Assembly (NCBI GenBank): GCA_030037855.1
Contig: JASHPY010000081.1
Coordinates: 1-35,912 of the forward strand
Length of the DNA stretch: 35,912 nt
Direction of reading: 5' to 3'
From: Thermoplasmata archaeon
GTDB lineage: Archaea; Thermoplasmatota; Thermoplasmata; Lutacidiplasmatales; UBA184
Under the pieces are notes generated by a model, which searched no databases, was not told the DNA's origin, and worked only from the letters and a program-made list of their open reading frames with translations. A program made the position numbers and the translations under genes. Every line of letters begins with the position of its first letter. Position 1 is the first letter of the stretch. Positions 15,421 to 34,129 of this stretch are shown here, piece by piece.

Positions 15421-15463
15421 GACGTCGGGAAGCGCCGGGCGGTGCCCCGGTTCCGGGGGCTCG

Positions 15464-15889
15464 CTAGGAGAAGTGGCCGCTGACGGCGACCAGATAGATC
15501 AGGAGCAGGATCGAGACGATGAAGCCGAACGTGACGAACGCGCCGGCGAGACCGTAGACGACGACCTCGAACAGGAGGAACAGGATCGTGAGCACGAGCG
15601 CCCACATCCTTAGGTGCCAGAGCCCGACCGCGAGACCGAGGACGATGAGTCCGATGACCAGGATGATGATGCCGGCCACGACGCCCGAGACCCCGAGCAC
15701 GTGGAACGGGCTCGACCCCGAGATGGACTGGAGCGCGGCGGAGCCGACCGCGAGCAGGAGCCCCGCCAGGAAGACGAGGAAGCCGTAGATCCCGATCAGG
15801 ACCGAGAGGATCGCGACGCCGAGCGGTCGGGAGCGGGTCGCCGGTGCGGAGTAGGTCGTGGTGGTGGTCGTCACGGTACCGTCGGTCAC
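15464..15889 (-). CDS. Small four-helix membrane protein
   Basis: The 141-residue product begins with a Thr-rich soluble tail (VTTTTTTYS) and has four hydrophobic helices at about residues 22-45, 60-86, 90-112 and 114-136, alternating with very short loops. Charged residues are almost absent within helices apart from HLRMW between helices 2 and 3. It resembles small unknown archaeal membrane proteins of the DUF2127/DUF4064 kind; no activity can be assigned. GTG 15889 overlaps the stop of the ammonium transporter gene by four bases (GTGA), so both are very likely one operon and it may assist that transporter. Confidence 0.75.
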   Translation of the reverse strand: MTDGTVTTTTTTYSAPATRSRPLGVAILSVLIGIYGFLVFLAGLLLAVGSAALQSISGSSPFHVLGVSGVVAGIIILVIGLIVLGLAVGLWHLRMWALVLTILFLLFEVVVYGLAGAFVTFGFIVSILLLIYLVAVSGHFS

Positions 15890-17247
15890 CGAGCAGGCGG
15901 TGACGCGCTCGACCCGGAACGAGCGGTCATGGGATATGAATCATTGGATTCGGCGGCGTAGCGCTCCAGCGGCGCCGCGGAACCCGAGGTCGAGGTGATC
16001 CCGTCGGAGAGGCGGGCGATGAGCGCCACGACCAGGAACGAAGCGACGAAGACGAACGCGAGGACCGCGACGATCCCGAGCGCCTCGATGCCGAGCTGAT
16101 GAACGGCGGCGACCCCGCCACCGAAGAAGAGCCCGTTCGGAAGGCCCGGATACCCGGACCCGACCGCGAACATCCGCTGGGCGAAGAACGGGATCATCAG
16201 CACGCCGAACACGCCCCCGACCAGGTGTCCCGGGAGCAACCCGACCGGGTCGGAGATCCACTTCAAGCGGGCGAACCGGTTCTCCGCGAGCGCGAAGAGG
16301 GGACCGCAGACGGCCCCCAGGATGAGCGCGCTCATCGGGCTCACGAATCCGGCGAGCGGCGTGATCACGATCAGGCCCATGAGGGTCCCGTTCACGCCCG
16401 AGGTGAGGTCCGCGAAACGACGCCGCCGGTAGAACTGGACCGTCAGGAACGAGACCATCCCGGTGGCGGCGGCGACGAACGTCGTGAGGACGACGACGAT
16501 CGTCTCGGTGTTGAACCCAAGGACGCTCCCGGGGTTGAAGCCGAACCATCCCATCCAGAGCAGAAGGATCGAGAGGACGAGCCAGGCCGGCTTCGGTTGG
16601 GGCGGACGGGGCGGCCCCGCGCGAGCGCCGCGCGCGCGCTCTTCCCTCCAGATCTGAACCAGGATCCCGAGCCCCGCCGCGCCCGCGGCGCCGTGCACGA
16701 CCAGCCCGCCGGCGAAGTCGACCATGCCGAGCTTCGCGAGCCAACCGCTCGGGTTCCAGATCCAGGCCGCCGGCACCGTCCAGATGAACACGAAGTAGAC
16801 GACCGAGAAGATCGCGAACGAGGTGAGCTTCACCTTCCGCAGCACGACGACCCCCACGAGCGCGAGGGTGACCGCCGCGAACGCCGTCTCGAACAGGAAG
16901 TACGTTCCGGGGTAGAGCCCGGTGTTGAAGTACGCCGGGCCCATCGACCACCAGACCGTCCCGAACGTCGCCGGGTAGTTCGAGGAGAATCCGCCGAGAA
17001 AGAATCCCTGCGCGTAGAACGGGTTCCCGAACAGCCCGTCGTGCGTCGGAGCGAAGCCGACGTTGAAGCCGACGATCGCCATGACGACGATCCCCACCCC
17101 GCTGATGAGCAGGGTCTTCAGAAGGCTTCGATAGAGGGACGCGCCGAGCTCCCCGACCTCGAGAAGGCCGACGGAGACCGTCATCGAGAAGACGAGCAGC
17201 GCGGCGATCAGGACCCAGAAGTTGTTCAGGAGGATCGGTACCGGCAC
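15886..17247 (-). CDS. amt: Ammonium transporter (Amt/Mep/Rh family)
   Basis: A 453-residue membrane protein that conducts ammonium. About eleven helices can be traced. The pore residues of the family are present: DFAGGLVVHGAAGAAGL with the Asp and first pore His in helix 5, and the second pore His in LLPGHLVGGVFG. WMGWFGFNPGSVLGFN and LTSGVNGTLMGLIVITPLAGFVSP are also characteristic. The C-terminal cytoplasmic tail is short. The start is GTG 17247, with a TATA-like box 33-39 bp upstream. No GlnK/PII gene accompanies it here, unlike many archaeal amt loci; instead a small membrane protein overlaps its end by four bases. Its presence suggests growth under low ammonium. Confidence 0.94.
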   Translation of the reverse strand: MPVPILLNNFWVLIAALLVFSMTVSVGLLEVGELGASLYRSLLKTLLISGVGIVVMAIVGFNVGFAPTHDGLFGNPFYAQGFFLGGFSSNYPATFGTVWWSMGPAYFNTGLYPGTYFLFETAFAAVTLALVGVVVLRKVKLTSFAIFSVVYFVFIWTVPAAWIWNPSGWLAKLGMVDFAGGLVVHGAAGAAGLGILVQIWREERARGARAGPPRPPQPKPAWLVLSILLLWMGWFGFNPGSVLGFNTETIVVVLTTFVAAATGMVSFLTVQFYRRRRFADLTSGVNGTLMGLIVITPLAGFVSPMSALILGAVCGPLFALAENRFARLKWISDPVGLLPGHLVGGVFGVLMIPFFAQRMFAVGSGYPGLPNGLFFGGGVAAVHQLGIEALGIVAVLAFVFVASFLVVALIARLSDGITSTSGSAAPLERYAAESNDSYPMTARSGSSASPPAR

Positions 17248-17279
17248 GAGGAGCCCAACGCGGATTCCGAGGTCACCGG

Positions 17280-17286
17280 TATTAAT
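17280..17286 (-). promoter_or_regulatory. TATA-like box of amt
   Basis: On the minus strand ATTAATA, 33-39 bp upstream of GTG 17247, in a GC-rich divergent intergenic region shared with the GH15 gene. Confidence 0.5.
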
Positions 17287-17382
17287 CCTCGCGCTCGACC
17301 GGCGGCGACGGCTCGACGGGGCCCGGAGCGTCGCGGCCGCCGGCCTCCCACGGGGTCCGGCGCGGCGGCTCGAACCGAGGGG

Positions 17383-17390
17383 TTATACAC
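17383..17390 (+). promoter_or_regulatory. TATA-like box of the GH15 gene
   Basis: TTATACAC lies about 65-70 bp before GTG 17454. This implies a leader of around 40 bases, consistent with the Shine-Dalgarno-like GGAGGT at 17442-17447, 6 bp before the start; most other genes here look leaderless. Confidence 0.5.
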
Positions 17391-17453
17391 GGCCGCGTCC
17401 CCCGTTCCTCCCCGGATGTTGCCGACCGGGCCTTCGGCCGCGGAGGTCCGCCC

Positions 17454-19319
17454 GTGATCACGATGCTCACGGGGAACAGCCGCGTGCTGCTCACCGTCAA
17501 TCCGAACGGCGAGTGGAACGAGCTGTTCTACCCGTTTCCGGGTCAGTTCCAGCACCTGCGGGAGATGCGGCTCGGCGTCTTCGATGTCGCGGGGGGAAAG
17601 TTCGCCTGGCTCCGACGCGGGAACGGCTACGAGATCCGCCAGGAGCCTCACGGGAACGGCGACCTCCCCGATTCGGTCTGGACCGGCCACGGTCTGACCC
17701 TCTCCGTGCGCGACCACGTCCACCCGAACCACGACCTGATCTCGCGGGTGTTCCGGCTCCGGGCCACCCCCTCGCGCCCGATCCGTCTGTTCGCCTACCA
17801 CGCGTTCCAGATCGCGGAGTCGATGTACCAGGACACGGCGTACGTCGACCCCAGCGTGCCGTCGCTGATGCACTACAAGCGCGGCTACTTCTTCGAGTTC
17901 TTCGCGGACCCTCCCTATACCCGGGCCGTGTGCGGCGAACACACCCTGAAGGGTCTCAAGGGGACCTACGTCGACGCCGAGGACGGCCGGCTCGAGGGCC
18001 GGCAGGTCGCCCACGGGGCCGCCGACAGCGTGATGGAGTGGGACCTCGAGCCGGGCCCCGACCGCGACACGGAGGTGCGGCTGTTCCTCGCCGCCGGGCG
18101 GAACCTCGCGGCCGCGCATCAGGTGCGGGACTACGTCCGGAACGGGGGGTACCACCGTTTCGTGCGCGAGTCGGAGGCGTTCTGGGACACGTGGGTCCAG
18201 CGGCGGCTCCCGCGCCCGCCGAAGGGACTCAGCGACCTCGCACGGAAGGTCTACCGGTCGAGCATCCTGATGATGCGCCATTCGACCGGGTGGAACGGTG
18301 CGATCATCGCCTCCCCGGACACGAGCTCGCTGGTCGCCGCGGGCGACACGTACAACTTCTGCTGGTGGCGGGACGGCGGGTTCGTCTCCAAGGCGATGGA
18401 CGAGGCCGGCCTCTACGAGAACGCCTCGCGATTTCTCGAGTTCGCCCGCTCCTGCCAGGAGCCGAACGGCTCGTTCTTCCACCGGTTCTTCCCCGACGGG
18501 GCGATGGGCAGCACATGGCATCCTCCGCCGTCGCTCCAGATCGACCAGACCGCGAGCGTCATCGCGGCGGTCTGGCACCACTTCAAGCGGGGTGCGGACC
18601 CGGACGTGCTGCTCGATGAGTGGCCGCTCGTCAAGGGCGCGGCGACGTTCCTCTCCTCGTTCCGTGACCCGTCGACCGGCCTACCGGCGCCGAGCTTCGA
18701 CCTCTGGGAGGAGCGGTTGGGGACCCACATCTACTCGACCGCCGCGGTCGCGCACGCGCTCGAACGGGCCGCGCGGGTCGCCGAGGAGATCGGAAAGGAC
18801 CCGTCCACCTGGCGGGCCGCCGGGCGCGAGATCGCGGAGGCCGCGCGGGCGCACTTCTGGGACCCGACCTCGGGCCGGTTCATTCGCTCGCTTCTTCCCC
18901 GAGACGACCGGATCGACGCGTCCGTCCTGCTCGCGCTCAAGCTGGGCCTCCTACCGTGGAACGACGCACGCGTCCTCGCCGCGGTCGACGGGATCGAGCA
19001 GCGGCTCTGGAGCCCCGACGTCGGCGGCCTCGCTCGGTACGAGGGCGACGAGTACTACGGGCACGAGAACCCCTGGATCATCTGTACCCTCTGGCTCGCG
19101 GAGGCCCGCCTGCGGCTCGGGGATCGCGCGCGATGCCGAGAGTTGATCGAGTGGGTCGCGTCGCACGCCACGCCGACCCTCCTGCTCCCCGAGCAGATCG
19201 ACCGGACGACCGGCGAGCCGAAGAGCGCGACCCCGCTCACCTGGTCGCACTCGACGTTCGTCGACGTCGTGCACAAGTACGCCGAGGCGGAGGCCGAACG
19301 CGAGGTCCCGGAGGAGTGA
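17454..19319 (+). CDS. GH15 glucoamylase-like glycoside hydrolase
   Basis: A 621-residue enzyme that releases glucose from alpha-glucan ends, or possibly hydrolyses trehalose, as some archaeal GH15 enzymes do. The N-terminal beta domain (about 1-240) precedes an (alpha/alpha)6 barrel. The barrel has STGWNGAIIASPDTS, the substrate-site NFCWWRDGGF, the general acid within FDLWEERLGTHIYST (Glu419 or Glu420), NPWIICTLWLAEARLR, and the general base Glu580 in LLLPEQIDRTTG, followed by PLTWSHSTFV. There is no signal peptide, so it is intracellular. Length and motifs match archaeal and bacterial GH15 glucoamylase/trehalase proteins. GTG 17454 is supported by GGAGGT 6 bp upstream. Confidence 0.92.
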   Translation: MITMLTGNSRVLLTVNPNGEWNELFYPFPGQFQHLREMRLGVFDVAGGKFAWLRRGNGYEIRQEPHGNGDLPDSVWTGHGLTLSVRDHVHPNHDLISRVFRLRATPSRPIRLFAYHAFQIAESMYQDTAYVDPSVPSLMHYKRGYFFEFFADPPYTRAVCGEHTLKGLKGTYVDAEDGRLEGRQVAHGAADSVMEWDLEPGPDRDTEVRLFLAAGRNLAAAHQVRDYVRNGGYHRFVRESEAFWDTWVQRRLPRPPKGLSDLARKVYRSSILMMRHSTGWNGAIIASPDTSSLVAAGDTYNFCWWRDGGFVSKAMDEAGLYENASRFLEFARSCQEPNGSFFHRFFPDGAMGSTWHPPPSLQIDQTASVIAAVWHHFKRGADPDVLLDEWPLVKGAATFLSSFRDPSTGLPAPSFDLWEERLGTHIYSTAAVAHALERAARVAEEIGKDPSTWRAAGREIAEAARAHFWDPTSGRFIRSLLPRDDRIDASVLLALKLGLLPWNDARVLAAVDGIEQRLWSPDVGGLARYEGDEYYGHENPWIICTLWLAEARLRLGDRARCRELIEWVASHATPTLLLPEQIDRTTGEPKSATPLTWSHSTFVDVVHKYAEAEAEREVPEE

Positions 19320-19383
19320 TCGCGCGTCCGACGGGTCGGTCCTAGCCCTCTACCGACCCGGAGTTTCGCGCGGCGCGCGCAGT

Positions 19384-19421
19384 CACTAGGGACCCGAGAT
19401 CGCGCTGGAGTCCACTAGGGA
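19384..19421. repeat. Direct repeat upstream of the sugar ABC operon
   Basis: CACTAGGGA occurs at 19384-19392 and again at 19413-19421, 29 bp apart. The second copy ends 21 bp before the TATA-like box of the binding-protein gene, where archaeal activators often bind. It may be the site of a regulator of sugar uptake. Confidence 0.45.
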
Positions 19422-19442
19422 GCCGCCCGGAGATTTCGTAAC

Positions 19443-19450
19443 AATTAATG
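19443..19450 (+). promoter_or_regulatory. TATA-like box of the sugar ABC operon
   Basis: AATTAATG starts 31 bp before ATG 19474 in an AT-rich patch, giving a very short or absent leader. Confidence 0.6.
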
Positions 19451-19473
19451 TAGGATGAAGCGTTCCGTGCGGC

Positions 19474-20919
19474 ATGTCAGCACAACCCACGGCAGGCTCG
19501 TCGGCTCCGCCGACGACCTCAGCGGGGCAGAACTACCAACGACGTCAGTCGCGGATGGCCGCAGTCTGGGTCATCATCGTGATCGTCGTCGCGGTCGTGG
19601 CCGGACTCGGCGGGTACTACTACGGCAAGTCGCAAGCGACGACGAATAGCAAGGTGACGGTCACCTACTACGACGACCTCGCGAGCAGCGAGGAGGGGTT
19701 CATGACGAACGTCCTGATCCCCGCCTTTGAATCGATCTATCCGAACATCCAGATCAATTACCAGAACATCGCCGCGGACACGATGGTGACGAAGATCCAG
19801 GCGCTGGTGCAAGGGAACGATGTCGGCACCACCCTGATCGCCGAGGACAACCTCGACATCGGCGAGTTGATCTACGGGACGAACGGCCAGAACTACCTGA
19901 TGAACCTGAACAACTCCGCGAACCCGATCGCTCCGGACATCCAACCCGCGAACATGATTCCCAGCATGACCGCGGTGGTCAACTACGAGCAGAGCGCGTT
20001 CGGCGGCCAGTACTTCATCCCGTTCCGGGCGAACACCCCGCTCGTCTGGCTGAACGCGACCGCCGCGAAGAAGGTCGGTATCACGGGGCCGCCCTCGAAC
20101 TTCACGGACCTCCTCGCCGACGCGAACCTCCTCGGCCCGACCTCGGTGCAGTTCCAGGGCGGAGCCGGTGACGACACGGCGACCGAGATGTTCCAGTGGG
20201 ACGTCCAGTTCGGCGGGAACCCGATGGTCTACAACGACTTCGGCGACCTGCAGGCGATGTCGTACGTGTACAACCTGAGCAAGGACTTCAACCCCGGCTC
20301 GGCGCAGGGGACCTACGAACAGTACTCCGGACTCGGGACGGGCGCCTACTCGATCCTCGCCTACCAGTGGCCGTACGTCTACCCGCTCCTGACCGGTGGC
20401 AACGACTCGTTCCCGGCGCTGAACTCGAACTCGCTCTGGGTCTACCCGGGTCCGAACGGCACGGGGGCTCACGCGGCGGCCCACGTGATCGGCGGCGACG
20501 TGCTCGCGATCCCGAGCGGGGCGACGAACCTCTGGGCGATCCAGCTGTTCGCGCAGTACCTGCTCGGCGCCAAAGCCCAGCAGGTCCTGATGGTCGACAC
20601 CGGGAACCCCGCCGTCAACGCGGCGGCCTACCAGAACCTCCCGGCGAACCAGTCGGTGATCGACCCGGTGATCCTGGCGGCGCTCGAGAACCCGGTCTTC
20701 CGGCCCCCGGTGCCCTGGATCGAGACCTGGGTCAGCACGTTCTACAACGACATCTACACGCCCTACATCCTGGAGGGACAGGGCTCGGGTTCGTGGTCGT
20801 CGCTCGTGTCGGACGCGAACGCAGCGAACTCCGCGATGGAGTCCTACCTCAGCTCGAGCGTCAGTGCCTCGGCGGCGTCGACGTACGCCTCCGGTGGCTA
20901 CGGACCGCTCTACGTGTAG
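19474..20919 (+). CDS. Sugar ABC transporter, substrate-binding protein (membrane-anchored)
   Basis: A 481-residue extracellular binding protein of the MalE-like family. The N-terminal 27 residues are Ser/Pro/Thr-rich, then one hydrophobic helix (about 28-48, AAVWVIIVIVVAVVAGLGGYYYG) acts as anchor; no lipobox Cys is present. The mature part begins KVTVTYYDDLASSEEGF, typical of these proteins, with YPNIQINYQNIAADTMVTKIQ for the first lobe, and contains many Tyr, Trp and Asn residues, as in sugar-binding clefts. The length is slightly above the MalE average. Two permeases and an ATPase follow, so the complete importer is present. The ligand is a maltose-, trehalose- or oligosaccharide-like sugar by context only. 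Confidence 0.9.
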   Translation: MSAQPTAGSSAPPTTSAGQNYQRRQSRMAAVWVIIVIVVAVVAGLGGYYYGKSQATTNSKVTVTYYDDLASSEEGFMTNVLIPAFESIYPNIQINYQNIAADTMVTKIQALVQGNDVGTTLIAEDNLDIGELIYGTNGQNYLMNLNNSANPIAPDIQPANMIPSMTAVVNYEQSAFGGQYFIPFRANTPLVWLNATAAKKVGITGPPSNFTDLLADANLLGPTSVQFQGGAGDDTATEMFQWDVQFGGNPMVYNDFGDLQAMSYVYNLSKDFNPGSAQGTYEQYSGLGTGAYSILAYQWPYVYPLLTGGNDSFPALNSNSLWVYPGPNGTGAHAAAHVIGGDVLAIPSGATNLWAIQLFAQYLLGAKAQQVLMVDTGNPAVNAAAYQNLPANQSVIDPVILAALENPVFRPPVPWIETWVSTFYNDIYTPYILEGQGSGSWSSLVSDANAANSAMESYLSSSVSASAASTYASGGYGPLYV

Positions 20920-20961
20920 GTGAGGGCCGGGTCGAGTTAGGTAGACGGCACCAACCCATTC

Positions 20962-21849
20962 ATGGCCGACCACCGGGACGAGGGTCGCCCCCCCGCCCCG
21001 GTGGCTGGATACCTTCGGCGGCACCGGGAGCAGCTGCTACCGGTTTTGTTCGTGCTTCCCGCGCTCGCGTACGTCGGATACTTCGCGTTCTACCCCGCCA
21101 TCGACGCGGTCGTGCTCAGCTTTCAGACCCCGATCCTCTCGTTCACGTTCTACAACTACCAGGCGAACGTCAATCTCGGCCTCTACACGTGGATCGCGAA
21201 CACGTTCTGGCTGACGCTGGGCGCGCTCGCCCTCCAGTTCGGCCTCGCGCTCGGGATCGCGTCGATCGTCAACCGTAACTTCCGGGGGAAGCGGATCTTC
21301 GCGACGATCGCGATCCTTCCGATCGGGATCTCGACCGTCGTCGCCGGTTACGCGTTCAGCACGATCTTCCCGGGATCCGGCGGAGGGTACGCGGCCAGCG
21401 TCCTGTCCGTGGTCGGATACCACGAGACGATCTACTGGCTGCAGACGCCCGCGAAGGCGCTCCTCGCCGTCATCATCGCGGACAGCTGGAAGAACACCGC
21501 GCTCGTCGTCATCATCCTCGTCGCCGGCTACGCATCGATCCCGTCGACGCTCTATCAGGCGGCGGCGATCGATGGCGCAGGACCGCTCCGACAGTTCCGG
21601 TACGTGACGCTGCCGGGGATCCGGGGGTTCATCGTCATCGCGCTCCTGATCCGGGGAGCGCAGGAGTTCAACATCTTCCAGCTGGCGCTCGAGATGATCG
21701 GTCAGTATCCCCAGCTGCTGACCGTCCAGATCTACGTCCTCTACACGTCGGGGGAAGGCATCTACCTCGCGTCCGCGGTCGCGTCGGTCCTCCTCGGGAT
21801 CGTCTCCGTGTTCATTCTGGTCGTCCTGCTCCTGGGGACCCGCCAATGA
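20962..21849 (+). CDS. Sugar ABC transporter permease, MalF/UgpA-like
   Basis: A 295-residue permease with about six helices, starting with VLPALAYVGYFAFYPAIDAVVLSF. The cytoplasmic EAA loop, which docks to the ATPase, is YQAAAIDGAGPLRQFRYVTLPG (about 211-232). The final helix ends in VFILVVLLLGTRQ. Without the extra N-terminal helices and large periplasmic loop of enteric MalF it resembles the simpler archaeal and Gram-positive form. The gene begins 42 bp after the binding-protein stop and overlaps the next permease by four bases (ATGA), so it is the second gene of the operon. Confidence 0.93.
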   Translation: MADHRDEGRPPAPVAGYLRRHREQLLPVLFVLPALAYVGYFAFYPAIDAVVLSFQTPILSFTFYNYQANVNLGLYTWIANTFWLTLGALALQFGLALGIASIVNRNFRGKRIFATIAILPIGISTVVAGYAFSTIFPGSGGGYAASVLSVVGYHETIYWLQTPAKALLAVIIADSWKNTALVVIILVAGYASIPSTLYQAAAIDGAGPLRQFRYVTLPGIRGFIVIALLIRGAQEFNIFQLALEMIGQYPQLLTVQIYVLYTSGEGIYLASAVASVLLGIVSVFILVVLLLGTRQ

Positions 21850-22742
21850 GCGCGGGCCCGCCGCTCGCGGTCGCTGCGGGCGAGGAGCGACCCCCCGCGC
21901 CGCGTCGCGGCCGGAAGCGCTGGACCCTCGCCAACGTCGGGTTCTACGCGGTCGTCGTGGCGCTCTCCGCCGCGCTCCTGTTCCCGATCTACGTGATCTT
22001 CCTGCTCGCGTTCGTCCCGGACCACTACACGATCTTCTCGTTCGTGCCCCCGTTGATCCCGCCCGCGCTCACGCTCACGAACCTCGAGACCGGGCTCGCC
22101 CTCTCGACCGCGCCGTTCCTCCCGTCGATGTACTTCAGTCTCGAGATCGCGTTCCTCGTCGGGGTGATCGCGCTCGCGATCGGGATCCCGACCGCGTACG
22201 GGCTGAGCCGCCTCTCCCGCGGGATCGCCTACGCGGTGACGACCGTGATGTTCATCGTGAACATGCTGCCCTCGATCGTGATCGCGATCCCGATCACGGT
22301 CCCGTTCATCAAGGCCGGGCTCTACGGCTCGGCGCTCGGGATCGCGCTCACGCAGGAGCTGCTCGCCCTCCCGGTCACGGTCTTCCTCCTGGTCGGCGCG
22401 TTCCAGGGCCTCCCGAGGGACCTCGAGAACCAGGCGCGCGTCGACGGCGCCGGACGGATCCGGGCGATCTTCGGTAACCTGGTCCCGCTCATCGTGCCGG
22501 CGCTCGCGGCCTCGTTCCTTCTCGCGTGGATGTTCAGCTGGGACGAGTCGACGTTCGCGTTGATCCTCTACAGCACCAACCCGACGCTCCCCGTGACGAT
22601 CTTCCTCACGGTGACCGGTCGCGGGAACCCGCTCGTGGGGGTGGCGTTCTCGTTCGTCGCCACCGTCCCCGTCATCATCCTGACGGTCATCCTCCAGAAG
22701 TATCTCAAGGGGGAGGACTTCACGGTGGGGGTACGCGGATGA
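21846..22742 (+). CDS. Sugar ABC transporter permease, MalG/UgpE-like
   Basis: The second permease half, 298 residues with six helices. A short basic N-terminus (about 30 residues) precedes helix 1. The EAA loop reads NQARVDGAGRIRAIFGNLVP. The C-terminal helix is followed by LQKYLKGEDFTVGVRG, the usual ending for MalG-type proteins (QRYLVxGLTAGAVKG-like). Overlaps of four bases with the genes on both sides show tight translational coupling with the other permease and the ATPase. Confidence 0.93.
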   Translation: MSAGPPLAVAAGEERPPAPRRGRKRWTLANVGFYAVVVALSAALLFPIYVIFLLAFVPDHYTIFSFVPPLIPPALTLTNLETGLALSTAPFLPSMYFSLEIAFLVGVIALAIGIPTAYGLSRLSRGIAYAVTTVMFIVNMLPSIVIAIPITVPFIKAGLYGSALGIALTQELLALPVTVFLLVGAFQGLPRDLENQARVDGAGRIRAIFGNLVPLIVPALAASFLLAWMFSWDESTFALILYSTNPTLPVTIFLTVTGRGNPLVGVAFSFVATVPVIILTVILQKYLKGEDFTVGVRG

Positions 22743-23770
22743 CCGTCAAGCTCCAGCTCGACCGGGTCTCGAAGAAGTTCGGCAGCCTGATGGTCGCCGA
22801 CGACGTCTCGCTCGACGTCGACGCCGGCGAGTTCTTCGTCCTGCTCGGGCCGTCGGGGGAGGGCAAGTCGACCCTGCTCCGCATGATCGCGGGGATCGAG
22901 ACCCCCGACTCGGGGACGATCCGGATCGACGGGCAGGACGTCACCGACCTGCCTCCGAACAAGCGGAACATCGCGATGGTGTTCCAGAACTACGCGCTCT
23001 ACCCGAACATGAACGTCTACCGGAACATCGCGTTCCCGCTGAAGATGCAGTACTTCCCGCCGGACGAGATCGAACCGAAGGTCCGCGACGTCGCGAAGAC
23101 GCTCGGGATCTCCGAGATCCTCGACCGCCGGGTCAACCAGATCTCGGGCGGCCAGCAGCAGCGGGTCGCCCTCGCCCGGGCGATCGTGCGGAACCCGACC
23201 CTGTTCCTGTTGGACGAGCCGCTGTCGAACCTCGACGCGCGCGTGCGGTTCGCGGCCCGCGCCGAGCTCAAGAAGATCCAGCGCGACCTCGGGCAGACGT
23301 TCTTCTTCGTGACCCACGACCAAAAGGAGGCCGAGGTCCTTTCCGACCGGACCGGTGTGCTGCACCACGGGGTGTTCGAGCAGATCGGCCCGTTCGACCA
23401 GCTCTACGACACCCCCGCGACCCGATGGATCGGCGACTTCGTCGGCGACGTGCCGATGAACTACGTCCCGTGGACCGAGTCGGGGACGTCGGGCTCGATG
23501 GGGTTCCGGCCCGAGTGGGCGACCGTCTCCCCCGACGGGGCTCAGAGCGCGACCGTCCAGGTCGCGGAACGGGTCGGGGACTTCACCTACCTCCTCTGCA
23601 CGACCGCGAACGGCTTGCGGGTCTACCTCCGCTCGCTCCGGTCGATGTCGGTCGGCAGCGAGGTCCGCTTCAACGTCGACCGGCACGTCTTCTTCGGGGG
23701 ACCGAAGGACGGAGAGGACGAGCGGGTCTCGAGCGAGCGGCCCGAGCGTCTTCCGCCGCGCCGGGCCTGA
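22739..23770 (+). CDS. Sugar ABC transporter ATP-binding protein, MalK/UgpC-like
   Basis: The 343-residue ATPase that powers the importer, probably as a homodimer under the two permeases. Walker A is GPSGEGKST (37-45; Glu where most have Cys), the Q-loop is in VFQNYALYPNM, the signature is SGGQQQRVALARA (136 onward), Walker B is LFLLDEP (155-161), and the H-loop is VTHDQ with His193. The last 110 residues form TOBE-like beta domains, e.g. MGFRPEWATVSPDG, as in MalK. ATG 22739 overlaps the permease stop by four bases; the longer open frame upstream reads through the permease and was rejected. ATPases of this type can also bind regulators or serve several importers. Confidence 0.95.
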   Translation: MTVKLQLDRVSKKFGSLMVADDVSLDVDAGEFFVLLGPSGEGKSTLLRMIAGIETPDSGTIRIDGQDVTDLPPNKRNIAMVFQNYALYPNMNVYRNIAFPLKMQYFPPDEIEPKVRDVAKTLGISEILDRRVNQISGGQQQRVALARAIVRNPTLFLLDEPLSNLDARVRFAARAELKKIQRDLGQTFFFVTHDQKEAEVLSDRTGVLHHGVFEQIGPFDQLYDTPATRWIGDFVGDVPMNYVPWTESGTSGSMGFRPEWATVSPDGAQSATVQVAERVGDFTYLLCTTANGLRVYLRSLRSMSVGSEVRFNVDRHVFFGGPKDGEDERVSSERPERLPPRRA

Positions 23771-23781
23771 CCCGGCGGGCG

Positions 23782-25458
23782 TCAGGCCGCCGTTCTCGGC
23801 TGCCGGCAGAGGAACAGCGTCCAGGAGAACGCCCGCGGGCCGAGCCGGTACTGGAACGTGTGGTCCGTCACGGTCGAGGAGTGCCCGCCGCGGAGCAGCT
23901 CGACCGGGGAGGCCCAGACCCGTTCGGGCAGCGGGAACGCTCCGCTGACCGGCTGGACCGAGAAGTTGTAGAGGCAGAGGATCTGGTACTCCTGGCCCCG
24001 GCGCCAGAACCCGAGGACCGGCGTCGAGCCGAGGTCGATCCCCTCGAACGTCGCCGACCCGAACACGGTGGAGTGGGCGGCCCGCACGCGCAGCAGCGTG
24101 CGCATGCGCCAGAGCAGGGACCGGGTCGCGGTCTCCTGCTCGGCCACGTTCCGTGCCGCCGGCGCGAACTTCGGGTCCGTGACCAGCGGACGAGTGAGGC
24201 GGGACGGGTCGGCCGAGGAGAACCCCGCGGTCGGGCCGTTCTCCCACTGCATCGGCGTGCGGACGGCGTCCCGGTCGGGCAGGTCGAGTCGGTCGCCCAT
24301 CCCGATCTCGTCCCCGTAGTAGAGGTACGGGCACCCCGGGAGACCGAGGACGAGCGCCGTCAGCAGGAGGACCGAGCTGTCGTCCCCCGCGACCAGCGGC
24401 GCGAGCCGGCGGCGGACCCCGAGGTGGACCCGCGCCTCGGGCGGGAGCGGGAAGTAGCGGAAGAACAGCGCGCGCTCGTCCTCCGAGACCTGCTCGAGCG
24501 AGAGCTCGTCGTGGTTCCGGAGGAAGTACGCCCAGCCGCAGCTCGCCGGAGCGCCCGAGAGCGTGGTCCGCAGGACGTCGAGGATCCGCCGCGGGTTGTT
24601 CTCGGCGAGCGCGAGGTAGAAGTTCGGCATCACCGGGAAGTGGAGGACCTCCTGGAACTCGTGCCCGGCGTCGAAGTACGCGACCGTCTCGGCCACCGAC
24701 TGGTTCGCCTCCGAGATCAAGATCGACCCCGGGTACTCCGCGTCGAGCATCGCCCGGACCTTCTGGAAGAACGTGTGCACCTCGGGCAGGCTCTGGCACG
24801 TCGTCCCCTCCCGCTTGAACAGGTACGGGGCCGCGTCGCAGCGGAACCCGTCGAGCCCGTGGTCGAGCCAGAACCGGGCGAACTTCAGCATCTCCTCCTC
24901 GACGGCGGGGTGGTCGTGATTGAGGTCGGGCTGGGTCGCGAAGAACCGGTGGAAGTAGTACTGGCCGGCCTCGGGGTCGAACGTCCAGTTCGACTTCTCG
25001 AAGTCGGGAAAGATCCGCCGCGCCCGGGAGAACTCGGTCCCCGTGTCGGACCAGAGGAACCAGGGGCGGTACGGGGAGGCGCGGTCCTTCCGCGCGGCCT
25101 GGAACCACGGATGTTCGATCGAGACGTGGTTCGTGACCAGGTCCCCGATGACCCGCAGCCCCCGGGCGTGGGCGCCCTCCACGAGCCGATCGAGGTCGTC
25201 GATCGTGCCGAACCGGGGGTCGACCTCGTAGTGGTTCGATATGTCGTACCCGTCATCGTTCCACGGGGACCGGTAGAACGGCAGGAGCCAGATCGCACCG
25301 ACGCCGAGGTCCGAGAGGTAGTCGAGCTTCGCGAGCACCCCCGGGAGGTCCCCGATCCCGTCGCCGTTCGAGTCGTAGAACGCGCGGATCGGGACCTCGT
25401 AGAAGACGACCGACCGGAACCACTCGGGAGAGCGGAGGTCCGACTCGGCCGGGCTCAT
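23782..25458 (-). CDS. treS: Trehalose synthase (maltose alpha-D-glucosyltransferase, GH13)
   Basis: Converts maltose to trehalose by intramolecular transglucosylation, reversibly. The 558-residue protein begins WFRSVVFYEVPIRAFYDSNG, has GDLVTNHVSIEHPWFQ, the nucleophile Asp208 in GFRCDAAPYL, Glu250 in ILISEANQ and transition-state Asp317 in LRNHDELSLEQ. FKREGTTCQSLPEVH after the nucleophile and PMQWENGPTAGFS are characteristic of TreS rather than plain amylase or oligo-1,6-glucosidase, and the length fits TreS without a fused maltokinase domain. It is convergent with the sugar ATPase gene (11 bp gap), suggesting that imported or glycogen-derived maltose is turned into trehalose, a stress protectant. 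Confidence 0.88.
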   Translation of the reverse strand: MSPAESDLRSPEWFRSVVFYEVPIRAFYDSNGDGIGDLPGVLAKLDYLSDLGVGAIWLLPFYRSPWNDDGYDISNHYEVDPRFGTIDDLDRLVEGAHARGLRVIGDLVTNHVSIEHPWFQAARKDRASPYRPWFLWSDTGTEFSRARRIFPDFEKSNWTFDPEAGQYYFHRFFATQPDLNHDHPAVEEEMLKFARFWLDHGLDGFRCDAAPYLFKREGTTCQSLPEVHTFFQKVRAMLDAEYPGSILISEANQSVAETVAYFDAGHEFQEVLHFPVMPNFYLALAENNPRRILDVLRTTLSGAPASCGWAYFLRNHDELSLEQVSEDERALFFRYFPLPPEARVHLGVRRRLAPLVAGDDSSVLLLTALVLGLPGCPYLYYGDEIGMGDRLDLPDRDAVRTPMQWENGPTAGFSSADPSRLTRPLVTDPKFAPAARNVAEQETATRSLLWRMRTLLRVRAAHSTVFGSATFEGIDLGSTPVLGFWRRGQEYQILCLYNFSVQPVSGAFPLPERVWASPVELLRGGHSSTVTDHTFQYRLGPRAFSWTLFLCRQPRTAA

Positions 25459-25510: not shown

Positions 25511-26392
25511 TCACGGGCCGGGGGGGAGCGAGGCCAGCACGGCCTCGCAGGCCCCGGCGAGCCGCCCGGCGGCCGCGAGGTCGCGCGACGCGCGATCGCC
25601 GGGAGTGATCCGGCGGTCGGCGAAGTACTCTCCCGTCACGCCGTCGAGGGCGGCGTCCTCCGCCACGTACACCGGCGTTTCCGCTCCCCGGGGGATGCTC
25701 CGTGCGAACAGCCGGGCGAGCACGCGCATCGTGAGCGCCGTGCCGCCCCCGTTGTTGAGACCGAACCCGGAGGCGACGTACCCGGGGTGCACCGCGTTCA
25801 CGGTGACGCCGGTGCCGGCGAACCGGCGCGCGAACTCCCGGGTCAAAAGGATCAGCTCGAGCTTCGAGCGACCGTAGGCGCGATACCCCGCGTAGCTCCG
25901 CGCGCCCTGGAGGTCCTCGAAGTCGACCCGCTGCCGGCGGTGGGCCGCGGACGCGATGTTGACCACCCGGGCCGGTGCGCTCGCGCAGAGGCGGTCGGCG
26001 AGGAGCGTGGTCAGCAGATAGGGGGCGAGGACGTTGAGCGCGAACGTTCGCTCCAGCCCGTCGGGCGTGAGTTCTCGGCGTCGGAAGAAGCCCCCCGCGT
26101 TGTTGACGAGCACGTGGATCGAAGGGTATCGCGCGAGGAGCTCCGCGGCGAGCGCGCGGACCCGGACCGGGCGCGCGAGGTCGTCCACCGACACGAACTC
26201 GACCCGAGCGTTCGCGGATTCCCGAGCGATCTCGCTCGCCGCGGCGGCGGCGCGCGCGTCCCCCCGGCCGACGACCACGACCGTGTATCCGTCCGTCGCG
26301 AGCCGGCGTGCGATCTCCCGTCCGATCCCCGACGTCGCGCCCGTGACGACCGCGACCCGCCCGGCACCCGTCCCTCCGACCGGCGCGCTCAC
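25511..26392 (-). CDS. Short-chain dehydrogenase/reductase (retinol dehydrogenase-like)
   Basis: A 293-residue NAD(P)-dependent SDR. Cofactor motif TGATSGIG is near residues 17-24, NNAGG near 98-102, catalytic Ser in VNIASAAHRR, and the YxxxK pair in YGRSK, with the additional Tyr in GYRAYGRSKLELI. Arg in VVGRGDARAA after strand 2 suggests NADPH. The extended substrate loop with FGLNNGGGTALTMRVLARLF resembles retinol-dehydrogenase-like members. The frame is open far upstream, but that reads antisense-phase through the adjacent gene; GTG 26392 leaves 49 bp to the ComA-like gene's stop, so both are probably one transcript. The substrate is unknown. Confidence 0.88.
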   Translation of the reverse strand: MSAPVGGTGAGRVAVVTGATSGIGREIARRLATDGYTVVVVGRGDARAAAAASEIARESANARVEFVSVDDLARPVRVRALAAELLARYPSIHVLVNNAGGFFRRRELTPDGLERTFALNVLAPYLLTTLLADRLCASAPARVVNIASAAHRRQRVDFEDLQGARSYAGYRAYGRSKLELILLTREFARRFAGTGVTVNAVHPGYVASGFGLNNGGGTALTMRVLARLFARSIPRGAETPVYVAEDAALDGVTGEYFADRRITPGDRASRDLAAAGRLAGACEAVLASLPPGP

Positions 26393-26441: not shown

Positions 26442-27440
26442 CTACGCGAGGCGGTACTCGCGTCGCCGCGAGTCGTGCAGCGAGACCGACTCCTGCACGA
26501 GCCCCTGCTGCCGGAGCGATTCGAGCGCGCTCTGGACCGTTCGACGCGGGAGCCGGGACATCTGCGCCAGCTGGGTCTGGTCGAGCCCGTGGTACGTCTC
26601 GAGCAGGAAGAACAGGAACTTCGCCGCGGGGGGCCCACTGACCCCCTTCACGGTCCGGATCGCCCCGAACGTCTCTCCGCGGAGGCCGAGGCGCTCGGTC
26701 GCGAGCGGGGCCACCGACCGGAGCGCGACGTTGCCGAGGTTGACGTCCGCTCCGAGCTCGCGGATCAGCTGGATCTGCTGCGACTCCATCGGCGCCTCGA
26801 AGATCAGTTCCTCGGCCGGGTGCTCGGCGAGGATCGAACGGACCCAGTCCCACTTGATGACGCCCTCGCTGTCGTAGATGCCGACCCCGCGACCGGACTC
26901 GCGGCTCTCGACGATCACCTTCCGCGGGTGCAGGGACCGCGCGTGAGTGATCTCCGCAATCGTCTCCTTGAGCGAGAGCTGGTAGTGCGTGTCCTTCTTC
27001 CCGACCTCGACGAGGTAGTCGAGGCTCCGCTCGCGGGCCGAGTCCGCGAGCTTCTCGATCTGGGCGGGCGAAAGCTCGATGATCCCGCTCGAGATCTCGA
27101 TAAGGTCGTAGCCGAGCTCCCGGGCCTCGTCGAGGAACTGGGGGACCTGGTCGCGGGTGAACGCGTACTCGAGCAGCGTCCCACCGGTCGAGACCTCGAC
27201 CGAGAAATCGTGCCACTTCTTGATCCGGGCGCGGATCATCTCCCGCGGGAGCAGGAGCGGGAGGCCCCAGCCGCTCTTCGCGATGTCGATGTACGGGGAG
27301 AGGTACTCGAGCTCGTGGTCGTGCTGCGGGGCGAGCCGGTCGAGGAGGTGCGTGAGCCCGACCGACCGGGGCCGCGTCGGCGTCGGGATCTCGGGCGGAA
27401 AGAACGTCTTCTTGGCTTTTCGAGCTGCAGTAGCTGCCAT
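26442..27440 (-). CDS. Phosphosulfolactate synthase (ComA)-like TIM barrel fused to a winged helix
   Basis: Residues 45-262 of the 332-residue product match the ComA family, which adds sulfite to phosphoenolpyruvate to form phosphosulfolactate in coenzyme M synthesis. Recognisable motifs are YIDIAKSGWG, STGGTLLEYA, YDLIEISSGII, VEVGKKD, VIVESRESGRGVGIYDSEG, LIFEAPMESQQ and ADVNLGNVALRSVAPLATERLGLRGETFG. Residues 270-332 are a MarR/TrmB-like winged helix: AKFLFFLLETYHGLDQTQLA, recognition helix LPRRTVQSALESLRQQGLV, basic wing DSRRREYRLA. This tail is not part of ordinary ComA. ATG 27440 is preferred over GTG 27473 because a TATA-like box lies 51-58 bp and AGGAGA about 10 bp upstream. Whether it is an enzyme, an enzyme-regulator or a repurposed sensor is open. 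Confidence 0.85.
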   Translation of the reverse strand: MAATAARKAKKTFFPPEIPTPTRPRSVGLTHLLDRLAPQHDHELEYLSPYIDIAKSGWGLPLLLPREMIRARIKKWHDFSVEVSTGGTLLEYAFTRDQVPQFLDEARELGYDLIEISSGIIELSPAQIEKLADSARERSLDYLVEVGKKDTHYQLSLKETIAEITHARSLHPRKVIVESRESGRGVGIYDSEGVIKWDWVRSILAEHPAEELIFEAPMESQQIQLIRELGADVNLGNVALRSVAPLATERLGLRGETFGAIRTVKGVSGPPAAKFLFFLLETYHGLDQTQLAQMSRLPRRTVQSALESLRQQGLVQESVSLHDSRRREYRLA

Positions 27441-27441
27441 G

Positions 27442-27473
27442 ATTGTCCACTCTCCTGCGCAGGAATTGTCCAC
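27442..27473. promoter_or_regulatory. Direct repeats flanking a palindrome in the leader of the ComA-like gene
   Basis: ATTGTCCAC occurs at 27442-27450 and 27465-27473, on either side of the perfect 12-bp palindrome TCCTGCGCAGGA (27453-27464). The block fills the space between the likely transcription start and ATG 27440 and contains the Shine-Dalgarno-like site. A dimeric winged-helix regulator, perhaps the product itself, would fit such a target. Confidence 0.6.
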
Positions 27474-27490: not shown

Positions 27491-27498
27491 CTTAAAGG
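27491..27498 (-). promoter_or_regulatory. TATA-like box of the ComA-like gene
   Basis: On the minus strand CCTTTAAG lies 51-58 bp before ATG 27440, placing the transcript start near the outer copy of the direct repeat. Confidence 0.45.
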
Positions 27499-29872: not shown

Positions 29873-32800
29873 CTACGGCGGAGTGGAGGGTGGCTCGCCG
29901 TCCTCACTCCACGGCGAGGCGCCCGTCGCTCCGCTGGGGGGAGCGCCGGGAGGGGGCGGCGCGACCGGCGAGGACGGCGGCGGAGGGGAGTACGGCGTCG
30001 GGGGAGCGCGGCTCCGGTCGTCGCGCCGGCGGCTCGCGAGAACGATCGCCACGGCGGCGAGGATCACGGCGAGGACCGCGAGGCCGATCCCGGCGTACTC
30101 GAGCCAGGTCGGCGCTCCCGACGCGGCCGAGCTCGCCGAGGTGACCGTGATCGGGACCGACGATCCGCTCACGTGGGCCCCGTTCGAGTCGGTGACCGTC
30201 ACGGACACCGTGAACGGCGAACCCGCGGTCGATGTCGGCGAGCACGCGATCGCCGAGGCGTTGCTGGCCGCGCAGCCGGACGGCAACCCGGACCAGGCGT
30301 AGGAGTAGGCGCCCGAGCCGCCGCTCGCCGCCGCTTCGAACGTGACGACCGAGTTCACCGCCACGCTGGTCGCGCTCGCGACGACCGTCGCCGGTCCGAG
30401 GGCCGGGGCGACGACGAGCGCGACGGTCGGCGAGGACGCGGTCGCGCCGTTCGAGTCCTGGGTCGTGAGGTAGACGGAGTAGACGCCGGCCGAGGTCGGC
30501 GAGCACGCGATGCTCGGCGCGTTCGCGCTCGAGCAGCCGCTCGGGAGCCCCGCCCAGCTGTACGAGTCGGACCCGCTCCCGTCGCTGGCGACCGTGACGG
30601 AGATCGTCGTCGACTGCCCCACATCGAGCCCGGCCGGGCTGGCGGTCGGGGCCGAGAGTCCCGGGTCGGGAGAGACGGTCAGGGACGTCGTCCCGCCGGC
30701 CGCGTGGTCGTCGTCGCTGTCGTGGAGGTTCGCGTGGACCGCGAACGTGCCCGACGCGGTGGGTGCGCACTCGATCGTCGCCGAGTTCACGCTCGCGCAT
30801 CCGGTCGGAAGTCCGACCCAGCTAAAGCTGTAGGAGCCGGTGCCTCCCGCGGCACTGACCGAGAGCTCCACCGCCTGGCCGACGTCGACCGCGGCCGGAG
30901 TGGCGGTCGGTGCGGAGAGAGTCGGGTCGGCGAGCACGAGGAAGGTCTGGGTCGCCGCGACCGAGCTCCCGGAGGAGTCGACGAGCGACAGCGTCGCGGT
31001 GTACGTGCCGGCCGCTGCGCCAACGCAAGCGCCCGAGATCTCGCCCGCGGCGATCGGGTCGGCGGTGCACGAGAGCCCTGAGGAGTTGCTCGAGTCGAGC
31101 GTGTAGGTGAGGTTGCCGGTGCCAATGCCCGGCACCGGCGCCGAGAAGAGGAGGCTCTGCCCGACGTCGAGCGACCAGTCCGAAGGAACCGTCGTGTCGT
31201 GGAGGGTCGGTACGACGCTGATCTCGTTCGCGCTCGGCTCGCTGACGTAGAGGGCCCCGTTGAACGGGTCGTACGCGCCGCTCTCGGGGTCGGCCGGGAC
31301 CGTGAGGGTCGCGACCACGGTCGAGCCCGAGACCACCGTGAGGTCACCGGAGTCGCTGTCGCTCACGTACACGTACCCGTTGGCGGTGTCGAACGTCAGC
31401 CCCGCGGGGTCCGAACCGACGGAGACGTTCCCCCCGAACGTGTTGCCGGGCAAGATCCACGAAACGTTGTCGGAGAGGCCGTCCGAGACGTAGACGTCGC
31501 CCGTGGCGCCGTCGTAGGCCAGCTCCTGCGGGCCCCCGAGGACCGGGATCGTCTGAAGGACCGTGTTCGTTCCCCCGTCGAGGACGCTCACGCTGTTGGA
31601 CCCGGAGTTGGCGACGTACAGATCGCCGTTGCCCGGATCGAAAGCGATGCCGGTCGGGTCGGAGCCGACCGACACCGTGGCGAGGACGGTGTTCGTCGCC
31701 CCCTCGATCACCGACACATCGTTCGAGCCTTCATTCGCGACGTAGATGTCGCCGTTCGCGGAGTCGTACGCCACGGAGGTCGGTACGCTTCCGACCACGA
31801 GGCTGGTCGTGACGGAGTTGCTCGCGGGGCTGAGCACGGAGACGGTGTCCGACGCCGAGTTCGCGACGTAGAGCTCCCCGTTGTCGGCGTCGGCGGCCAC
31901 CGCGACGGGGGAGCCGCCGACCGGGACCGTGCCGACGACGGCGTCCGTGCTCGCGCTGACCACGGAAACGTCGTCCGACGTGATGTCGGGAACGTAGATC
32001 GAGTTGGTCGCGGCGTCGAAGGCGCCCGCGGCGGGCGCGCCGGGGACGGAGACCTCCCCGCTCGCGTCGCCGATGACCGCAACCCCGCGCAGCGAGCCGC
32101 TCGCGGGATCGATCTGAAGCAGCGTGGAGACCACGAGCAGCGAGTTCAGGTCCTCGCTCACGGCGTACACGTCGCCGTTCGTGGGGTCGAAGGCGAGCTC
32201 GCGGGTGCCCACGTCCGAGCCGCCGGGCGGCTGTTCATTGACCGTCGCGGTGACCGAGTTCGTGACGCTGCTGATCGCGAAGAGCTCGTCGTTGTAGGTC
32301 CCGACGTACACGAGCGACGAGCCGGCGTTGTACGCGAAAAACTCGGGGTTCGCGGCGACGGAGATCGCCGAGCCGACGACGGCGTCGGTCTCCCCGTTGA
32401 CCACGCTCACCGAGCTGCTGCCGAAGTTCGCGACATAGAGGAGGCCGTTGTCGGGGTCGAAGAGGACCCCGGTCGACTCGTCGCCCAGGTCGACCGGACC
32501 CCCGATGACCTTGTTGGTCGAGCCGTTGATGGCATTGATCGTGCCGGGATCGTTCTGGCCGGTCACGAACACCCGATCGTTCGAGGTGTCGACCGCCACG
32601 CCGAACGGAAAGATCGTGGTGGTGAACGAGATCGTCGTTACCAGCGTCTCGGTCGCCGCGTTGATGACGCTGACGTTGTTGCTCGCGTCGTTCGCGACGT
32701 AGATCTCTCCGTTCGCCGGGTCGAAGGCGATCCCGATCGGGTCGCCCCCCACCTGGAGCGCGCTCGAACCCAGGGGCACGAGCTGGTTGGTCGCCGAGTT

Positions 32801-33283
32801 GATGACCGAGACGTTCTCGCTACCGGAGTTGGCGACGTAGATCAGGCCGTTGGTGCTGTCGTAGGCGACTCCCTGGGGAACGGTCCCGACCGGGATGCTC
32901 GCCACGACGGCGTTCGACGACGCGTCGATCACGCTGACGGAGTTTCCGAACGCATTCGCCGCGTAGATCTCTCCGTTCGCCGGGTCGAACGCGACCGCGA
33001 ACGGCGCCGATCCGATGGGGATGGTGTTGGTGAGCGTCCCGGCCTCCCACAGCGGTGGGCTGGTGGCCCCGCCCTCCGAGGTCGGCGAAATGGCCGGCGC
33101 TAGCGACCCCGAGCCGGCGGGAGCCAGCGGCGCAGCGACTGACCCACCACCAAGCGACGGCGCCCCCGGGTCGACGGCGGCGGCCGGCAGCGCGATCGCG
33201 GCGACCGAGGCGATCGCGGCCAACGTCAGGAGGAATATCGGTAGTCGATGTCTCAACGCGGAGCACCGGAGGGTGGGACGCAT
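29873..33283 (-). CDS. Large cell-surface protein: fourteen YVTN propeller repeats, PKD-like domains, C-terminal anchor
   Basis: The 1136-residue product has a signal peptide (IFLLTLAAIASVAAIALPAAA, about 15-36). Residues about 75-690 contain fourteen repeats of the YVTN type (GIAFDPANGEIYVAN..SNxVSVI), enough for two seven-bladed beta-propellers. Residues about 700-1055 hold four Ig/PKD-like domains; three share GLPxGC and a downstream IxC pair that may form disulfides. A helix at about 1062-1084 anchors the protein, followed by a 50-residue Pro-rich cytoplasmic tail. This architecture is common in archaeal surface-layer, adhesion and substrate-binding proteins. The start ATG 33283 lies about 24 bp after a TATA-like box, so the mRNA may be leaderless. 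The binding partner is unknown. Confidence 0.9.
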   Translation of the reverse strand: MRPTLRCSALRHRLPIFLLTLAAIASVAAIALPAAAVDPGAPSLGGGSVAAPLAPAGSGSLAPAISPTSEGGATSPPLWEAGTLTNTIPIGSAPFAVAFDPANGEIYAANAFGNSVSVIDASSNAVVASIPVGTVPQGVAYDSTNGLIYVANSGSENVSVINSATNQLVPLGSSALQVGGDPIGIAFDPANGEIYVANDASNNVSVINAATETLVTTISFTTTIFPFGVAVDTSNDRVFVTGQNDPGTINAINGSTNKVIGGPVDLGDESTGVLFDPDNGLLYVANFGSSSVSVVNGETDAVVGSAISVAANPEFFAYNAGSSLVYVGTYNDELFAISSVTNSVTATVNEQPPGGSDVGTRELAFDPTNGDVYAVSEDLNSLLVVSTLLQIDPASGSLRGVAVIGDASGEVSVPGAPAAGAFDAATNSIYVPDITSDDVSVVSASTDAVVGTVPVGGSPVAVAADADNGELYVANSASDTVSVLSPASNSVTTSLVVGSVPTSVAYDSANGDIYVANEGSNDVSVIEGATNTVLATVSVGSDPTGIAFDPGNGDLYVANSGSNSVSVLDGGTNTVLQTIPVLGGPQELAYDGATGDVYVSDGLSDNVSWILPGNTFGGNVSVGSDPAGLTFDTANGYVYVSDSDSGDLTVVSGSTVVATLTVPADPESGAYDPFNGALYVSEPSANEISVVPTLHDTTVPSDWSLDVGQSLLFSAPVPGIGTGNLTYTLDSSNSSGLSCTADPIAAGEISGACVGAAAGTYTATLSLVDSSGSSVAATQTFLVLADPTLSAPTATPAAVDVGQAVELSVSAAGGTGSYSFSWVGLPTGCASVNSATIECAPTASGTFAVHANLHDSDDDHAAGGTTSLTVSPDPGLSAPTASPAGLDVGQSTTISVTVASDGSGSDSYSWAGLPSGCSSANAPSIACSPTSAGVYSVYLTTQDSNGATASSPTVALVVAPALGPATVVASATSVAVNSVVTFEAAASGGSGAYSYAWSGLPSGCAASNASAIACSPTSTAGSPFTVSVTVTDSNGAHVSGSSVPITVTSASSAASGAPTWLEYAGIGLAVLAVILAAVAIVLASRRRDDRSRAPPTPYSPPPPSSPVAPPPPGAPPSGATGASPWSEDGEPPSTPP
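30180..33060 (-). repeat. Coding tandem repeats of the propeller and PKD-like domains
   Basis: The DNA is repetitive because it encodes about fourteen 42-45-residue propeller repeats and four PKD-like domains of about 85-90 residues. Copies are diverged, with best-conserved words for GDIYVAN, SVSVI and GLPSGC. It should not be read as a CRISPR array or noncoding satellite. Confidence 0.8.
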
Positions 33284-33739: not shown

Positions 33740-34129
33740 ATGAAAGCGCTGGACACCCCGGTGCTGCTCGCGATCCTGCACGATTCTCCCACCGGGAGGG
33801 AGCTCCTCAAGTCGCTGCGGGGCGAGGAGCTCGCCACCACCGAGCTCAATCTCTACGAGCTCCGTGCCGCCGCCGCGGGCGGACCCCCGGCGGCCCGAAC
33901 GGCCCGGGACACCGCGCTCGCCCGCCTACGCCGAAGGATCACCGTCCTTCCGATCACGGCCGAGTCGGTGTCGGAGGCGGGTCGCTACCTCCACGGAGCG
34001 TACCGGAACGACCCGTGGAGACCGCTCGTTCTCGGGACGCTCGCCGCGGCGGGGTGCTCGGAGTGGATCACGACGCGAGCGTACGCCCCAGTGAAGGGGA
34101 AGCTGCCGTTCAAAGTCCGGATAGTCTGA
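33740..34129 (+). CDS. vapC: VapC-type PIN-domain protein, possibly degenerate
   Basis: PIN-domain toxins are magnesium-dependent ribonucleases that cut tRNA or rRNA. The 129-residue protein has the first acid Asp5 in KALDTPVLLAIL and the second Glu40 in ATTELNLYEL. The C-terminal half aligns by eye with the usual DALIAATALxxGxxLVTxD region as RPLVLGTLAAAGCSEWITTR: the third and fourth conserved Asp become Arg93 and Arg113. Asp91, two residues away, might substitute. Activity may therefore be lost or altered. It starts with ATG 33740 just after the vapB stop, with GGTGAGG in front. The alignment is by eye only. Confidence 0.8.
   Translation: MKALDTPVLLAILHDSPTGRELLKSLRGEELATTELNLYELRAAAAGGPPAARTARDTALARLRRRITVLPITAESVSEAGRYLHGAYRNDPWRPLVLGTLAAAGCSEWITTRAYAPVKGKLPFKVRIV

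Follow-up and report, generated by a model that had tools for sequence, protein, structure and literature searches.

Why would a protein with the barrel of ComA, the (2R)-phospho-3-sulfolactate synthase of coenzyme M synthesis, end in what looks like a DNA-binding domain? We met this question in a 35,912-nucleotide stretch of DNA from a Thermoplasmata archaeon, all of which was analyzed and is referred to here as the window. The gene lies on the minus strand at 26442..27440, with its ATG at 27440 and its stop codon at 26444-26442, and encodes 332 amino acids; the gene is supported by its open reading frame, by Pfam matches and by the shared architecture of its homologues, and its coordinates are exactly those proposed in a first-pass annotation made from the sequence alone. 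That annotation also had an SDR gene following, and an SDR-family oxidoreductase gene (25511..26392, minus strand) indeed begins 49 nt downstream and is probably co-transcribed. A gene of the type I phosphodiesterase/alkaline-phosphatase superfamily (PF01663; 27665..29062, plus strand) is divergent from the fusion gene.

The wider window holds a carbohydrate cluster (14227-25458) with GH57-like and GH15-like (17454) genes, a sugar-binding protein, an ABC transporter of two permeases and an ATPase (19555-23770), and a GH13 gene (23782-25458) that adjoins the SDR gene; the cluster is partly kept around SDR-linked fusion copies. Positions 29873-33283 encode a large protein, secreted and about 1136 aa long, in which YVTN-like β-propeller units recur and whose C-terminal transmembrane segment has a Pro-rich tail, and positions 33740-34129 a small PIN-domain-like (VapC-type) protein whose family is also found beside other fusion copies.

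The protein joins a ComA-type barrel to a winged helix

Pfam, motif residues and comparison of a model with M. jannaschii ComA (1QWG) identified a ComA-type (β/α)8 barrel at aa 21-258 (26667..27380, minus strand). The ComA profile PF02679 matched aa 21-255 with 214.5 bits, well over its curated cut-off of 25.2. The 280-bit cut-off of the ComA equivalog model TIGR03849, however, was not reached by the window protein (209.6 bits) or by cysH-linked fusions (206 and 215 bits), and every fusion that we tested fell under it; M. jannaschii ComA scored 343 bits, and tailless ComAs encoded beside ComB in family f38 scored 274 and 279, just under the threshold. A full-length AlphaFold2 model based on an alignment of 54 fusions had a pLDDT of 90.8, and its barrel superposed well on 1QWG (TM 0.90 by target length, rmsd 1.7 Å, 34% identity). 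All of the ComA motif residues checked (17/17) were present in the window protein, including Lys137 in M. jannaschii (MJ) numbering; which of them are catalytic we take from the 2003 ComA structure work.

Most fusions, whether linked to cysH or to SDR, have these residues unchanged, which suggests at the sequence level that ligand binding, and possibly catalysis, is retained in most of the family. Several copies have altered barrels. In L078, from the window's genus, 7/17 barrel motif residues differ (including K137R and R170P) while the winged-helix invariants are intact, and the locus keeps the SDR and PF01663 neighbors seen in the window as well as a similar promoter box, GCGCAGGA. In L155, which comes from another class of the phylum, E133 and the RESG motif are gone but the winged helix is intact, and R170A occurs in L051, L065 and L068. 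Two tailless ComA-like proteins (L146 and L151, from families f11 and f25), in which K137, R170 and the RESG motif are all missing, form a separate ComA-like group.

Profiles, alignment and models placed a MarR/TrmB-like winged helix at aa 269-332 (26445..26636, minus strand), comprising the recognition-helix region SRLPRRTVQSALESLR and a DSRRREY wing. In the window protein this tail matched MarR_2 with 24.3 bits (cut-off 27; E 4e-5) and TrmB with 21.3 bits (cut-off 25.6; E 2e-4), both under the curated cut-offs; at E ≤ 0.01, MarR_2 matched 46/54 homologues and TrmB 36/54. The AlphaFold2 model ends in helices 270-282, 287-294 and 298-310 followed by strands 314-318 and 326-330 (model numbering without Met), and this helix-helix-helix-strand-strand order is winged-helix topology. 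When modeled alone, the tail had a pLDDT of 91.5, and Foldseek matched it to structures of the MarR family, some of them bound to DNA (E from 9e-5, TMq about 0.8), and also to a structure of a ROK repressor, in which a winged helix is joined to a sugar-kinase fold. The C-terminal winged helix of the first-pass annotation was thus recovered both in the full-length protein and in isolation. Arg, Asp and Tyr residues of the recognition helix and wing are invariant among fusions. Because the 11 winged-helix positions that we followed had been picked for their (near-)invariance in alignment A1, whole-domain identity is the fairer way to compare the two domains: median identity to the window protein in the SDR-linked clade was 91% for the winged helix vs 71% for the barrel, and the corresponding values for L078 were 77% vs 48%.

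The fusion is a widespread family

The fusion is present in 54/103 genomes of the window's family, and the 30 full-length copies first examined there all carry the same tail, about 77 residues past the barrel match. Because this architecture is shared by 30/30 copies from many genomes, we ruled out an assembly chimera or a frameshift fusion. At the class level, fusions occur in families f1, f11 and f19, in many genera and with closed genomes included, and one copy (L155) comes from another class of the phylum. In the tree, fusions form one side of a branch with support 99, separate from tailless ComAs. The tail is absent from the solved ComAs 1QWG and 1U83, in line with the first-pass statement that no characterized ComA is known to have one, and from the f38 ComAs beside ComB; that all standard ComAs might carry it, an idea that would have spoken against a special fusion, does not hold. 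A catalytic-fold sensor joined to a DNA-binding domain is therefore found here as a conserved family. Two paralogues of the fusion occur in genomes G062 (L050/L051) and G036 (L062/L063), each having one cysH-linked copy of clade A and one copy of clade B, to which the window belongs.

Many fusion genes are divergent from a sulfite-making operon

A cysH gene, often followed by sat, is divergent from the fusion in 35 loci belonging to three families, and most fusions outside the window's sublineage have this neighbor. Within f19, 25/29 fusions have a divergent cysH a short distance away (21 by gene call and 4 more by tblastn), in most cases with sat behind it. A divergent cysH was also found for 4/4 f11 fusions, for 3/3 fusions of genus g4, which belongs to the window's family, and beside three second copies in the window's own genus (g1). 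CysH of L071 passes the thioredoxin-dependent APS reductase model as well as that for PAPS reductase, and the Sat of this locus passes a model for sulfate adenylyltransferase. The tailless f38 ComA, in contrast, adjoins ComB and not cysH. CysH makes sulfite, the nucleophile of the ComA reaction (sulfite + PEP), and a regulator divergent from its target operon is a classical arrangement. Class-wide co-occurrence of PF01507 with the fusion was set aside as uninformative, since this family also takes in a long archaeal type that is unrelated.

The deepest fork within the fusion tree has cysH-linked members on either side. On this phylogenetic basis, linkage to cysH is probably the ancestral state and linkage to SDR in the window's sublineage a derived one, and the fusions form a large family whose ancestral neighbor was probably the sulfite-making operon. 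In two loci of the SDR sublineage (L055 and L029), sat still adjoins the fusion. In one f19 genome (G233), cysH-sat is missing beside the fusion (L123) and the flanking genes match those of L130, an apparent loss of the operon; this genome has sulfite reductase genes. Genus g2 (L013, L042, L052 and L070) is another re-targeted sublineage, in which the fusion is divergent from an ACT-domain protein, near a phosphoribosyltransferase-domain gene, and not from cysH.

The window's genus has 25 loci in which a same-strand SDR gene lies close to the fusion, directly downstream in 24 of them, and 14 loci with a PF01663 gene, making the latter a frequent but not constant neighbor. The window copy probably belongs to a derived lineage that was rewired to an SDR operon and lost its cysH link. 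A search of the window's own genome (85% complete) detected no true CysH, Sat or sulfite reductase and, as described below, no ComB; we therefore regard the sulfite link as ancestral, not local, for this copy.

Palindromic boxes at many fusion promoters

The promoter of the window gene contains a palindromic box, TTCCTGCGCAGGA, that lies 12 nt before the ATG and just downstream of a putative TATA-like box, CTTTAAG (27491..27497, minus strand), which was assigned from the sequence and from alignment with homologue boxes; 26 bp separate the two. Within the box, the 12-bp perfect palindrome TCCTGCGCAGGA (27453..27464, no strand assigned; 24-13 nt before the start codon) is a candidate autoregulatory operator. 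Its overlap with the presumed transcription start would suit autorepression. Across the 1.75-Mb assembly, the perfect 12-bp core is present just once, at the promoter of the fusion gene itself.

Similar boxes were found at the promoters of homologues. The strict form of the box stands at the own promoter of 16/23 SDR-linked copies vs 3/151 other genes, a count uncorrected for shared ancestry, and the distance between box and TATA-like box is nearly constant in these copies. Also without correction for shared ancestry, TCCTGCG/CGCAGGA occurs in 15/46 vs 1/278 for clade B, TTC[AG]T[AC]T in 13/34 vs 4/298 genes for clade A, and the half-site TTCNTRY, which fits the boxes of both clades, in 23/80 vs 14/576. 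The box type differs between clades A and B along with the recognition helix. Individual examples include a 16-bp perfect palindrome, AATTCATATATGAATT, at L119 and, for the cysH-linked fusions of genus g4 in the window's clade, TCCTGCGTAG in the cysH intergenic region. As sequence evidence, these counts support the operator reading but do not amount to proof.

A genome-wide palindrome scan yielded four one-mismatch sites, which were intragenic-looking or not promoter-like, and a reversed control pattern gave as many hits as the palindrome pattern. With one perfect copy and an equal control, we claim no further targets. K-mer enrichment in the AT-rich f19 intergenic regions alone was barely above shuffles, and a sigma-70 promoter scan returned nothing, as expected for an archaeon.

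Regulator or enzyme

Our preferred interpretation, which we hold with moderate confidence, makes the fusion a one-component regulator derived from an enzyme. It would sense sulfite/PEP or phosphosulfolactate, repress its own gene and, in the ancestral state, control cysH-sat. We favor this interpretation because of the divergent cysH-sat synteny, the box at the fusion's own promoter, the altered-barrel copies with intact winged helices, and the absence of ComB from the window's family, and the same observations support the first-pass suggestion that a catalytic barrel was reused in a transcription factor to sense a metabolite, perhaps a sulfonate or PEP-like ligand. Counting against it, the full set of ComA motif residues survives in most copies, as would be expected if catalysis were retained.

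That conservation is the first argument for the main alternative, a bifunctional trigger enzyme, in which an active phosphosulfolactate synthase uses PEP to fix or detoxify sulfite and the attached winged helix also adjusts transcription of its own gene and of cysH-sat; we consider this possible but the less probable account. The motif is unchanged in cysH- and SDR-linked fusions, a ComB homologue is present in every f19/f11 fusion genome tested, so that a sulfolactate route is conceivable there, and sulfite reductase is mostly absent (4/46), which would make ComA a possible sulfite sink. However, ComB is lineage-wide in f19 and was also found in 3/3 f19 genomes without the fusion; it is therefore not coupled to the fusion, and we dropped this co-occurrence as support for an enzyme pathway. 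Moreover, ComB (PF04029) over its cut-off was detected in 0/103 genomes of the window's family, the window's genome included. This result rules out a coenzyme M pathway nearby and agrees with the first-pass remark that nothing else of coenzyme M synthesis is close to the gene. Copies with altered motifs nevertheless keep the winged helix and the gene context, and all fusions tested score under the ComA equivalog cut-off. The two accounts differ in whether the product is made in quantity, and we rank the regulator higher.

We judge it improbable that the tail is an oligomerization or protein-contact module on an ordinary ComA, with no DNA binding. Winged helices can mediate protein contacts, and the MarR_2 and TrmB scores of the window protein are under the curated cut-offs, but the recognition-helix and wing Arg/Asp/Tyr residues are invariant, the fold is closest to MarR regulators, including DNA-bound ones, a palindromic box is conserved at the promoter, and box and recognition helix differ together between clades A and B. 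Least probable of all is a non-orthologous sulfolactate/sulfopyruvate pathway with the fusion as ComA, the PF01663 protein as a ComB substitute and the SDR as a ComC substitute: the gene associations in the window's genus (SDR in 25 loci, PF01663 in 14) and the lack of a true ComB in its family would fit, but many loci have a divergent PF01663 gene or none, carbohydrate genes make up the surroundings, the matches of the SDR to generic oxidoreductase subfamilies stay under the respective cut-offs, and the barrel motif of L078 is altered though both neighbors are kept.

If the fusion is a regulator, the ComA-type barrel would have become, or would also serve as, a ligand sensor, and the MarR-like winged helix would be its DNA-binding output. 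The barrel may bind sulfite with PEP, or their product phosphosulfolactate, and binding would shift the affinity of the winged helix for the palindromic half-site TTCNTRY, such that the protein, in its ligand-free (or ligand-bound) form, blocks the start of its own transcription. The cysH-linked members would also control the sulfite-making operon, creating feedback on toxic sulfite. In the window, the regulator would head an operon with the SDR gene and retain the box at its promoter. Its targets appear to be chiefly its own gene and the SDR operon, and candidate signals are sulfite from other sources or PEP alone. A broader version, in which these proteins are class-wide archaeal transcription factors with the ComA barrel as sulfite/PEP sensor and the first candidate local regulator of assimilatory sulfate reduction (cysH-sat) in Thermoplasmata, and in which the window's branch was redeployed to the SDR operon as an autorepressor responding to PEP or sulfite, seems to us evenly balanced between true and false.

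Comparison with known systems

We know of no enzyme-fold regulator built on a ComA barrel, and open-licence PMC papers yielded neither such a regulator nor a description of the fusion. Given that its gene adjoins the sulfite-making genes in related archaea, the fusion is most likely a regulator of sulfur assimilation that had not been described before. If our interpretation is correct, it names a regulator of sulfate assimilation for a group of acidophilic archaea, for which none was described in the papers searched. It would also explain why a coenzyme M enzyme is annotated in many non-methanogenic archaea, and phosphosulfolactate synthase annotations of such genes would need correction.

With ComA (PF02679; 1QWG, 1U83) the fusion shares the barrel fold, at the 34% identity to 1QWG given above, and the motif residues K43, E79, E103, E133, K137, E168, R170, E171, E205, N224 and R240 (MJ numbering). 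Unlike ComA, it has an extra C-terminal winged helix, a sub-equivalog score and, in some copies, an altered motif, and its gene is found beside cysH-sat or SDR instead of ComB. The 1QWG ComA is a trimer with active sites at the subunit interfaces, an arrangement that has no obvious match to the two-fold symmetry of the operator here. Regulators of the MarR/TrmB type and the winged helix of the methanogen MsvR resemble the tail in topology, in a conserved recognition helix, in a D-x-R-R-x-x-Y wing and in a palindromic box at their own promoter, whereas the fusion is without the MarR dimerization helices and uses a ComA barrel as its sensor. The closest parallels in principle are ROK repressors, BirA, NadR, MocR/PdxR and PutA, which likewise combine a catalytic fold with a DNA-binding domain and for which the metabolite-linked autoregulation proposed here has a counterpart. 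The fold of the fusion is different from and unrelated to theirs, and a new fold would thus join the short list of enzymes turned transcription factors.
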